The position numbers and the translations under genes are program-made. DNA of 64,000 nt from Gemmatimonas sp. (lineage in GTDB: Bacteria > Gemmatimonadota > Gemmatimonadetes > Gemmatimonadales > Gemmatimonadaceae): the NCBI GenBank assembly GCA_011390885.1, contig JAABRO010000061.1, positions 62,001 to 126,000 of the forward strand. Reading direction: 5' to 3'. The notes beneath the pieces are model-generated. The model ran no database searches and was not told where the DNA came from. It was given only the letters and a program-made list of their open reading frames with translations. Of this stretch, positions 14,066-37,928 are shown piece by piece. Position 1 is the first letter of the stretch, and each line of letters begins with the position of its first letter.

Positions 14066-14446
14066 TCAGTCGCCGCGGTAGGTCACCCGGAAGCCGCCCG
14101 TCTCGGAGACCTCCACGGCGACGAGCTGCGGCACGCGCTCGCGCACGGCGCGCCAGATCCAGATCGCGAGCGACTCGCTGGTAGGGTTGAGCAGGCCGGG
14201 CACGTCGTTGAGCACGCGATGGTCGAGCGCGCCGTGCACCGGTGCCCAGGCGTCTGCCAGGTCGGCGAAGTCGAGCACCCAGCCCGTGTCCGGATCGACG
14301 GGCCCGCGCACGGTGAGTCGGACCCCGAAAGTGTGGCCGTGCATGCGGCCGCAGGGGTGGCTCTCGGCGACGGACGGCAACCAGCGCGCGCTCGCGAGCG
14401 CGAAGTCGGCGGAGAGCTCCGCCGTGGGCGCGCCGGGATCGGTCAG
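14066..14446 (-). CDS. queD: 6-carboxytetrahydropterin synthase QueD-like, non-AUG start
   Basis: A 126-residue T-fold enzyme of the queuosine/7-deazaguanine pathway, converting dihydroneopterin triphosphate to 6-carboxytetrahydropterin. It matches E. coli QueD well: PCGRMHGHTFGVRL (catalytic Cys plus two zinc His), DPDTGWVLDFADL, LDHRVLNDVPGLLNPTSE and VEVSETGG. The N-terminal strand, needed for the fold, begins only if translation starts at CTG 14446, which overlaps the upstream TGA as CTGA. The next start-like codon (TTG 14380) would remove that strand, and no ATG, GTG or TTG lies in frame upstream. The family's first zinc ligand (AAHRLP) is Arg here (SARWLP). queE-queC are 10 kb away. Confidence 0.82.
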   Translation of the reverse strand: MTDPGAPTAELSADFALASARWLPSVAESHPCGRMHGHTFGVRLTVRGPVDPDTGWVLDFADLADAWAPVHGALDHRVLNDVPGLLNPTSESLAIWIWRAVRERVPQLVAVEVSETGGFRVTYRGD

Positions 14447-15219
14447 CGCCGGCCGGGCGAGGCGGCGCTGGAGTCGCCGCCGGTGACGCCGAGCGAGTCG
14501 AGGAAGGCGAACATGCTGTCGTAGCGCGCGGCCACGAGGTCACCATCCACGAGGCGGCGCACGCCCTTCCACTCCCGGACCAGCGACGACGACTTCACGT
14601 CGAGCGAGCTCTCGATCACGCGCCGCTTGCTGGTGCTGGCGTGAATGAAGCGTCCCTCGCCGATGTACATGCCGATGTGCGTGATGCGGCTGCCCTTCCC
14701 GAAGGTGAGCAGGTCGCCGGGCTTCATCTGGCTGCGATCCTTGGGGATCTCACGACCGACGCGCGCCTGCTCCTGCGCGGTGCGCGGGAGCGAGATGTCG
14801 AAGGCGGACACGATGTGTCGGATGAGCGCGCTGCAGTCGAGGCCGCGCAGCGGGTTGTTGCCGCCGAGCAGGTACTTGATGCCGATGGACTGCTGCGCGC
14901 GCGCGACCATGGAGTCGCGCAGCGCCCCCACGGACGCCGAGAGCGCGGCGAAGGCCCGGGGACGGGCCGCGTCGACGGCGAGTCGCGGCGCGGCGGCGCC
15001 GCTGGTTTCGGCCGCTTCCGCACGCGACGCAGCGCTCGCGGCGTTGCCCGACGAAGAAGCACCCATCTGCGCCTGCACGGGGGTCGCGGCCACGAAGGCG
15101 GCGACCATGGCGGTCAGGGCGAAACGAATCGGTCGCTGGCGTGCTGGGGAGGGCACGTCGAGGCGGCGGGTGACAGGGCGGAAACGAGCGGCGAGGACGG
15201 CACGACACCGTCCCGCCAT
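14443..15219 (-). CDS. NlpC/P60 peptidoglycan endopeptidase
   Basis: An exported cell-wall hydrolase of about 258 residues. A long Arg-rich leader and signal segment (ALTAMVAAFVAATPVQAQ) and an Ala/Ser-rich linker precede an NlpC/P60 domain with catalytic Cys in GLDCSALIRH, His in ITHIGMYIG and the third polar residue in FIHAST. It should cleave D-gamma-glutamyl-diamino acid bonds in peptidoglycan stems. The start is uncertain: ATG 15219 is taken because TAGGTT sits 15-20 bases upstream; GTG 15231 or 15156 are alternatives. Its stop overlaps the CTG start of queD, so the two are co-translated. Confidence 0.85.
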   Translation of the reverse strand: MAGRCRAVLAARFRPVTRRLDVPSPARQRPIRFALTAMVAAFVAATPVQAQMGASSSGNAASAASRAEAAETSGAAAPRLAVDAARPRAFAALSASVGALRDSMVARAQQSIGIKYLLGGNNPLRGLDCSALIRHIVSAFDISLPRTAQEQARVGREIPKDRSQMKPGDLLTFGKGSRITHIGMYIGEGRFIHASTSKRRVIESSLDVKSSSLVREWKGVRRLVDGDLVAARYDSMFAFLDSLGVTGGDSSAASPGRR

Positions 15220-15234
15220 CGGCGACCCCACAAC

Positions 15235-35853: not shown

Positions 35854-37344
35854 TCAGCCCGCGCGCACGTGCACCAGCACCACGTCCATCACGTTCGTGC
35901 CCGACGGGCCGGTGCGCAGCAGCGCGCCGGCGGCGTCGAGGGCGTGGTAGCTGCGGTGCGACTGCAGGTCCTGCTCGGGTGGCCGTCCCTCGCGGCGGAT
36001 CAGCGCGGCGGTGAGCGCGTCCACCACGGCGCCCGAGGCATCGGTGGGCCCGTCGCGGCCGTCGGTGCTGCCGGCCAGGATCGTGATGCGCGAGGCGAGC
36101 GCGCGTGCCATGGGGCCGGGCTCGATGGGGAGCACCGACTCCGGTGCGTCGAGCGTGAGCGCCGCCGCGAGCGCGAGCACCTGCATGCGGCCGCCGAGCG
36201 GCGGCTCGGCGTCGGCGTGTGCCAGCGTGGCGCTCACCGCGCGCATCCACGGTGCGAGCGCGCTGGCGGTGTCGCTCTCCTCCGACGAGGCGTCGTCGTC
36301 GGCGAGCATGGTGACCGTGGGTTCGCCGCCCCACACGAGCAGCGTCTCGCCGTCGTGTGAGAGCGCCTGCCGCAGCGCCACACGTGCGATGGCGCCGCCC
36401 ACCGACTCGGCCTCCCCCTGCAGCGGCTCATCGGCCACGAACACGTCGGCGATTCCCTCGCGACGCGCCGCATCGGCCGCCGCGTCGCACGCCTCACGAT
36501 TGCCCGCGATCACGCGAAACGCCACGCGCTCGAACGCCGGATGCGACGGTGCTGGCGGCGTGATCGCCTGCGCGCCGCTCCCGGCGAGGCCGAGTGCGCG
36601 CAGGAGCGGCGCATCGAGTGCACCGCGCAGGCCGTGCGCATCGCAGAGTGCGAGCACATCGTCGGGGAGCAGCGGATCGGCGGAGCAGGGCCCCGAGCCA
36701 ATGACGGCCGGATCGTCGCCGATCACGTCGGAGATCGCGAACACCTGCACCTGGCCCACGCCGCGGGCCGCGAGCGCCGTGGCGAGGCGACCGCCGCCCC
36801 AGCGCAGCAGTCGGCGGCGAATGGCGTTCATTTCGTGAATCGCCATGCCGCGCGCGAGCATGTCGTCCATCGTGCGCGCGAGCAGTCGCTGCGCGTCGGC
36901 CGGGTGCCCTACGAGCGAGACGAGTTCGGCGCAGGGCGCGGCGCACAGTGCGGTGGTGCCGCCGGAGACGAGCACGAGCGCGTCATCCCCCGCGTCCACC
37001 TGCGCGATCGCACTCGCAATCGCATCGGCGGCGGCGAGCGAGCCGATGTCGGGGAGCGGATGGTCACCCACGCGCAGCGGGAGCGGGCTTGCCGTCTCAG
37101 GACGGTGCGCTGCGACGATCAGGCCACCCGCCGGTGAGATGCCCGCCGCCTCGAGTGCGTCGAGCGCACCGTGCGCCATGTCCGGCGCGGCCTTGCCGAG
37201 TGCGAACACGTGCACCGGCACGCCGGACGCACGAGCGGCCAGCCACTCGGCGGTGTGACGCCGTGTGACTGGCCGAGGAGCGACGCCCTCGATCGCGGCC
37301 CGGTGCAGGCGCGCGAGGAGGGCGTGGGCGGGCGGACGACTCAG
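35854..37344 (-). CDS. glycerate 2-kinase (DUF4147/GckA type), non-AUG start
   Basis: A 496-residue cytoplasmic kinase of the MOFRL/DUF4147 family, which phosphorylates D-glycerate to 2-phosphoglycerate. Motifs: FALGKAAPDMAHGALDALEAAG, VLVSGGTTALCAAPC, MNAIRRRLLRWGGGRLA, FAISDVIGDDPAVIGSGPCSAD, and the C-terminal ITILAGSTDGRDGPTDASGAVVD MOFRL block. The family N-terminal helix (SRPPAHALLARLHRAAIEG) begins exactly at CTG 37344, which overlaps the peroxiredoxin stop as CTGA. I found no ATG, GTG or TTG in frame for at least twelve codons upstream of it; any start there would run through the peroxiredoxin gene. Confidence 0.88.
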   Translation of the reverse strand: MSRPPAHALLARLHRAAIEGVAPRPVTRRHTAEWLAARASGVPVHVFALGKAAPDMAHGALDALEAAGISPAGGLIVAAHRPETASPLPLRVGDHPLPDIGSLAAADAIASAIAQVDAGDDALVLVSGGTTALCAAPCAELVSLVGHPADAQRLLARTMDDMLARGMAIHEMNAIRRRLLRWGGGRLATALAARGVGQVQVFAISDVIGDDPAVIGSGPCSADPLLPDDVLALCDAHGLRGALDAPLLRALGLAGSGAQAITPPAPSHPAFERVAFRVIAGNREACDAAADAARREGIADVFVADEPLQGEAESVGGAIARVALRQALSHDGETLLVWGGEPTVTMLADDDASSEESDTASALAPWMRAVSATLAHADAEPPLGGRMQVLALAAALTLDAPESVLPIEPGPMARALASRITILAGSTDGRDGPTDASGAVVDALTAALIRREGRPPEQDLQSHRSYHALDAAGALLRTGPSGTNVMDVVLVHVRAG

Positions 37345-37928
37345 CGGGCGACCTTCTTGATGGCCGCGTCGAGCTCGTCGTACGCGTCCTGCGCCATGGC
37401 GCGGAAGCTCGTGGAATACGTGATCTTGCCGTCCGGCCCGATCACGTAGAGGTAGCGCTTGTGGAAGCCGGCCTCGTTGGCGGCGCCGTAGAGCGCGCCG
37501 ACCTTCTTGTCGGTGTCGGCGCCGAGCGCGAACTGGAAGCCGTCGTCCTTGGCCCACGCGATCAGGTCCGCGTCGGTGTCGGTGCTGATGCCGATGAGGC
37601 GCACCTTCTTCCCGTTCAGGAACATCGACTCGTACTTGTCGCGGTAGGTGTGCATCTGCGCCGTGCAGCCGCTGGTGCGCGCCTTCGGGAAGAACGCGAG
37701 CACGACGGTCTCGCCGCGATGCTTGCTGAGCGTGAACGGCTCGGCGGTGCGGCCGTCCTTCGTGACGGTGACGAGCGTGAAGTCGGGGGCCGCCTGGCCC
37801 ACCTGGAGCAGGCCGGCAGGCGCGGCCTGCGCGCGCAGCGACGAGGAGGCGAACGGCGTCGCGACCAACGCGACGGTGAGCGCGGTCATCGCCAGCGTGA
37901 GGCGACGGGCCGAGGAGACGAGCGACAT
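37341..37928 (-). CDS. exported AhpC/TSA (Bcp-type) peroxiredoxin
   Basis: A 195-residue thioredoxin-fold peroxidase. The signal peptide ends ATPFASSSLRAQA. VGQAAPDFTLVTVTKDG starts the domain, and VVLAFFPKARTSGCTAQMHTYRDKY holds the peroxidatic Cys (T-S-G-C). No resolving Cys follows within five residues, unlike E. coli Bcp. ATG 37928 has GGAG about 8 bases upstream. A longer start at 37973 is also plausible, because TATCTT (37980-37985) lies six bases before it. It is co-translated with the kinase gene. Confidence 0.86.
   Translation of the reverse strand: MSLVSSARRLTLAMTALTVALVATPFASSSLRAQAAPAGLLQVGQAAPDFTLVTVTKDGRTAEPFTLSKHRGETVVLAFFPKARTSGCTAQMHTYRDKYESMFLNGKKVRLIGISTDTDADLIAWAKDDGFQFALGADTDKKVGALYGAANEAGFHKRYLYVIGPDGKITYSTSFRAMAQDAYDELDAAIKKVAR

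Follow-up and report, generated by a model that had tools for sequence, protein, structure and literature searches.

Probable CTG start codons at four-base stop/start overlaps in a Gemmatimonas genome, with a queD-like gene as the leading case

An NlpC/P60 and queD-like gene pair joined by CTGA

The window analysed here is a stretch of 64,000 nucleotides (G000:C61:62001-126000) from a draft genome of the genus Gemmatimonas, which amounts to 4.07 Mb with a GC content of roughly 70%. On its minus strand a gene for an NlpC/P60 protein is followed by a queD-like gene of the 6-carboxytetrahydropterin synthase family, and the two share the four bases CTGA (Table 1). A preliminary description of this DNA had proposed that the queD-like gene begins at the CTG of this overlap. 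Read directly, the minus strand at the junction is ...cggccggcg CTGA ccgatccc...; the NlpC/P60 gene ends in ...CGG CGC TGA and the queD-like frame runs CTG ACC GAT CCC... from position 14446, exactly where the overlap had been placed.

The open queD frame spans 157 codons, 31 of which lie upstream of the CTG. Between the upstream in-frame stop and codon +24 the only start candidates are the CTG (codon 0) and a TTG (codon +22, position 14380), and the open reading frame listing puts the start at the latter. Direct reading bore out the earlier statement that no ATG, GTG or TTG precedes this TTG in the frame. A start there would, as also claimed, cost the protein its first strand (AELSADFALASARW), given that profile position 2 of PF01242 is matched at residue 11 counted from the CTG and that the TTG is residue 23.

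By sequence the product belongs clearly to the PTPS family (PF01242), and it shares the Cys, HGH and LDH motifs with the 6-carboxytetrahydropterin synthase QueD. It differs from QueD in narrowly missing the equivalog threshold of the NCBIfam model TIGR03367 (86.4 bits against a cut-off of 89.25) and in its zinc ligands: of the three zinc-binding His residues the HGH pair is kept, and the first is replaced by Arg in all five genomes of the genus that were compared, ASARWLP standing where many relatives have EAAHRLP. The same His is also lost in genera g7 and g29 (AAGRRL), independently or not. Because two other PTPS-family proteins of the genome (C9:44159 and C54:107866) retain it, the functional QueD may be a protein other than the one encoded at this locus. 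In other genera of the family (L020-L044) queD commonly follows an apparent queE, with stop and start often overlapping or nearly so, whereas in Gemmatimonas it lies behind the NlpC/P60 gene instead.

Table 1. Coordinates of the genes and junctions discussed (window positions unless a locus is named)
Feature	Position	Strand	Remarks
CTGA junction, CTG start overlapping the NlpC/P60 TGA	14443..14446	-	CTG 14446-14444, TGA 14445-14443; CTGA in G000-G004
NlpC/P60 gene, stop shared with queD start	14443..15231	-	PF00877 1.3e-23; longest frame, start approximate
queD-like 6-carboxytetrahydropterin synthase family gene	14066..14446	-	126 aa from CTG; PF01242 1.4e-29
22 codons from CTG to TTG 14380, including first beta-strand region AELSADFALASARW	14381..14446	-	Over 14 of these codons (AELSA..RW), 23, 8 and 74 differences at first, second and third positions, ten genome pairs
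Second CTGA junction	37341..37344	-	CTG 37344-37342 as glycerate kinase start, overlapping the peroxiredoxin stop
Glycerate kinase-like gene (DUF4147/MOFRL), start CTG	35854..37344	-	PF13660 from residue 10 after CTG
Peroxiredoxin gene (AhpC-TSA), upstream of second junction	37341..37901	-	End coordinate is that of the stretch read, not a mapped start
infC conserved ATC start, AGGAGCTCGGCGT ATC CAG	L237-L240 (G000:C17:37060-37560 and orthologs)		Four genus genomes; known IF3 autoregulation type

The queD junction within the genus

Orthologs of the queD-like gene were found in four other genomes of the genus, each behind the same NlpC gene, and CTGA is present at the NlpC stop in all five (CTGACC in G000, G001 and G002, CTGAGC in G003 and CTGAAC in G004). 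The genomes compared are draft assemblies, of which at least some are MAGs, and they number five rather than six, G001 and the public locus L016 being one assembly (a 163,133-bp contig).

In G000, G001 and G002 no ATG, GTG or TTG lies ahead of the conserved first strand of the protein. The TTG at +22 is the sole canonical candidate in G000 and G001; it is absent from G002, where the first canonical start is the ATG of RMHGH, beyond the conserved Cys. The other two relatives have ordinary starts 3-10 codons downstream of the CTG, and neither has one at the CTG position itself: in G003 a TTG follows the CTG by 3 codons, and in G004 an ATG follows it by 10.

As the first canonical codon of the frame, TTG 14380 is the obvious competitor, and its use would leave the in-frame segment upstream, including AELSADFALASAR, untranslated. 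Against this stand the match to PF01242 from profile position 2 and the manner in which the segment has diverged. Over the 14 codons AELSA..RW ahead of the TTG, differences at codon positions 1, 2 and 3 number 23, 8 and 74, respectively, in ten genome pairs. This dominance of third-position change shows, on comparative grounds, that the segment between the CTG and TTG 14380 is translated in the queD frame. Because of this pattern and of the missing TTG in G002, we regard a start at TTG 14380 as excluded for practical purposes, its probability being very small indeed. Kept across the genus and backed by the substitution pattern, the CTG start put forward in the preliminary description is thus supported.

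Further CTGA junctions in the genome

The preliminary description had named a companion case at 37344, and this proved to be real. The junction between the peroxiredoxin and glycerate kinase-like genes reads CTGA in G000, G001 and G002, with TTGA in its stead in G003, and the first canonical codon lies 41 codons into the kinase gene. We surveyed some 40% of the genome (1.60 Mb with 1247 called genes), taking the 522 co-directed pairs in which the downstream frame stays open past the upstream stop. In the four-base-overlap frame there were 97 GTGA, 91 ATGA, 111 CTGA and 7 TTGA junctions; at most of the CTGA junctions an ATG or GTG close behind makes a special start unnecessary. Pairs lacking a canonical start between -60 nt and +8 codons were scored for coding versus non-coding composition over the interval that runs from the junction to the first canonical start. 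Three pairs only gave a coding LLR above 4, namely queD (7.4), C1:117904 (7.2) and C61:126770 (6.5), and all are CTGA overlaps (3/32, against 0/68 controls, which all stayed at or below 3.3; hypergeometric p about 0.03). Such scoring is coarse and insensitive, missing both the glycerate kinase gene and an EamA transporter gene (C61:39225) that are supported by homology. N-terminal edges from stop-to-stop tblastn were uninformative, as an out-of-frame overlap with a conserved upstream gene aligns too, and an unconstrained search for coding signal ahead of any canonical codon was noisy and dominated by signal peptides. No CTGA start candidate appeared in a 400-kb sample of the complete genome G047 (4,636,964 bp), a sample too small to exclude them.

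To queD and the glycerate kinase gene the survey adds three others, encoding a cpsB-like phosphatase, the EamA transporter and a TPR-type protein, and all five junctions are four-base overlaps. The cpsB-like gene (C1:117904) is the clearest parallel. Its sequence CTG ATC GAC CTG CAC ACG would be read as M followed by IDLHTHLLPGVDDG, the N-terminus of CpsB/CapC-type phosphatases; PF19567 is matched from profile position 1 at residue 1, GGAGG stands a few bases upstream as a good Shine-Dalgarno sequence, and the first canonical codon comes 20 codons downstream, past the HxH motif. CTG-IDLHTHLLPGVDDG is found in four of four genus members (G000-G003), and the codon at the CTG position is ATG, GTG or TTG in all 26 of the other family relatives listed. 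A pattern scan of 395 Gemmatimonadota genomes, in which A, C or G was allowed as the first base and which three genus members fit, matched 75 genomes, with CTG in those three only and ATG or GTG in the other 72. Homologs with an ordinary start at the very position of the CTG are thus known for this gene and, through the TTGA of G003, for the glycerate kinase gene.

In G000, G002 and G004 the EamA gene has CTGA, and no canonical start comes before the end of the first membrane helix; G003 likewise has CTGA at the upstream stop, followed two codons on by a TTG. For the TPR-type gene (C61:126770, also L062:6770), which lies 770 bases past the end of the window, coding signal extends from the CTGA overlap and no ATG, GTG or TTG occurs for 126 nt; in G001 and G003 the orthologous gene is clear of the upstream stop and has a GTG close by. 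Judged from these comparisons, at least five genes of the genome appear to start at CTGA, four of them backed across the genus and the TPR gene less firmly. The proposal that the organism tolerates CTG at stop/start overlaps gains support from the three added genes, two of which are conserved as CTG in relatives. Because the survey sought CTG in earnest only at such overlaps, the confinement to CTGA is in part a product of its design. Elsewhere, a GlpD-like flavoprotein gene (G000:C11:242936-244553) has its only nearby canonical start, a GTG, inside the first strand (FDLVVIGGG) and is possibly another non-canonical start, away from CTGA. A short sigma-54 activator-like piece (EREGRFRPDLYYRLNVILPEDLG) right after an upstream stop at G000:C11:275964 looks frameshifted or broken.

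The genomes being drafts, an assembly or sequencing error might be thought to mask an ordinary start, and the preliminary description had raised this for queD. The same CTGA recurs in separate species genomes (five for queD, four for cpsB and four for EamA), which excludes such an error at the queD junction and leaves the explanation a negligible probability in general.

CTGA by itself is expected by chance, since C precedes 560 of 946 TGA stops (59%), and the case for CTG therefore rests on the missing alternatives and on conservation. The background chance that the C is kept in relatives is 0.13 for queD, 0.20 for cpsB and 0.21 for EamA (product about 0.006); active selection for C at the junction is only suggested by these values, because C before TGA is favoured in general. 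This same preference, together with the ATC start of infC in the genus and the presence of ATC or ATA as codon 2 of cpsB, could be taken to mean that ribosomes re-initiate at other nearby non-canonical codons (ATC in cpsB, ACC or AGC elsewhere) and that the CTG is mere context of the TGA. In principle the cpsB-like gene could start at its ATC, as infC does, but its CTG sits exactly where relatives have ATG, GTG or TTG. At queD, EamA, glycerate kinase and TPR the junction offers no near-cognate codon besides CTG, which pairs with a CAU anticodon at two of three positions, as against one or none for ACC or AGC. We consider initiation at such other codons very improbable.

Probable initiation at CTGA and its relation to known systems

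For the queD-like gene, a start at CTG 14446 is very probable on the comparative evidence, and the ribosome terminating on the NlpC/P60 gene most likely re-initiates there with the ordinary initiator tRNA. A stop/start overlap of 1 or 4 bases is expected of a termination-reinitiation pair, and the CTGA junctions overlap by four. The ribosome, or its 30S subunit, on finishing the NlpC protein would already be positioned on the overlap and would accept the CTG at reduced efficiency, reading it with fMet-tRNA. CTG being a weak start codon, output of the downstream protein would probably be low relative to that of the upstream one and may be sensitive to IF3; both properties are inferred. In E. 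coli, initiation at CUG is inefficient, and its complexes are less stable than those formed on AUG, GUG or UUG (PMC11497404). Reinitiation rather than independent initiation is probably the route at CTGA. No obvious Shine-Dalgarno sequence was seen at the queD, EamA and TPR starts, which fits coupling; the good one at the cpsB-like gene would also allow independent initiation there.

The queD frame might instead be reached by a -1 frameshift out of NlpC, yielding a fusion protein, as the frame is open for 31 codons into the NlpC gene. Inspection by eye found no slippery heptamer near the overlap, however, and the NlpC protein, with its signal-peptide-like N-terminus, looks exported, whereas QueD-type enzymes are cytoplasmic. 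Moreover, G004 carries an ATG after the stop, and frameshifting would be needed in five unrelated gene pairs, each time exactly at a CTGA. This explanation is accordingly very improbable beside initiation at the CTG.

The possibility of a special initiator tRNA was rejected. The one present has a CAU anticodon, three G-C pairs and an ordinary anticodon arm (GGG-CTCATAA-CCC), and relaxed decoding through the tRNA is therefore not the cause. The gene for IF3 is present, and infC starts with ATC after AGGAG in four of four genus genomes; the corresponding codon is ATT in E. coli and ATC in Streptomyces (PMC5472188). Its recovery indicates that our comparison detects true non-canonical starts.

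Bacterial genes that start with CTG are considered extremely rare. The junctions described here share with those of termination-reinitiation at ATGA, GTGA and TGATG (Huber et al. 2019, PMC6728339) a four-base stop/start overlap of co-directed genes and differ in the start codon; that paper describes ATGA and TGATG and nowhere contains the string CTG. Conserved weak starts outside ATG, GTG and TTG that are under IF3 control are known from infC (ATT, ATC or ATA), Streptomyces sigR (GTC; PMC5472188) and S. aureus ccpN and cvfC1 (PMC13009471). In contrast to these, which use ATT, ATC, ATA or GTC, the present cases have CTG, which recurs in several genes of a single genus that are unrelated to one another, always as CTGA. 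A reconstruction of about 69,000 ancestral starts from 36 genome triplets counted 4 in which a canonical codon had given way to CUG, a figure that depends on annotation (Belinky et al. 2017, PMC5622118); here, several genus-conserved CTG starts occur in 40% of one genome. In Caulobacter dnaA a CUG gave a toeprint but proved to be unused in vivo (PMC8443254). Our literature search, which was limited, found no paper on start codons in Gemmatimonas. Non-canonical starts as such are already known, and what is new is the repeated, genus-conserved use of CTG at stop/start overlaps, which to our knowledge is undescribed.

It is conceivable, though we think it rather unlikely, that the genus employs CTG as a regular and selectively kept weak start, CTGA being a junction that sets protein ratios by keeping the downstream product at a low level dependent on IF3, with looser start-codon rules for reinitiation than for initiation de novo.

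Common gene-finders consider only ATG, GTG and TTG, and genes that start at CTGA will be missed or cut short in annotation. Annotated from a canonical start, the cpsB-like protein would be left without its HxH motif and the EamA protein without the first of its membrane helices. The CTGA genes also provide a natural setting in which to test whether start-codon choice is more permissive in a re-initiating ribosome than in one that initiates de novo.
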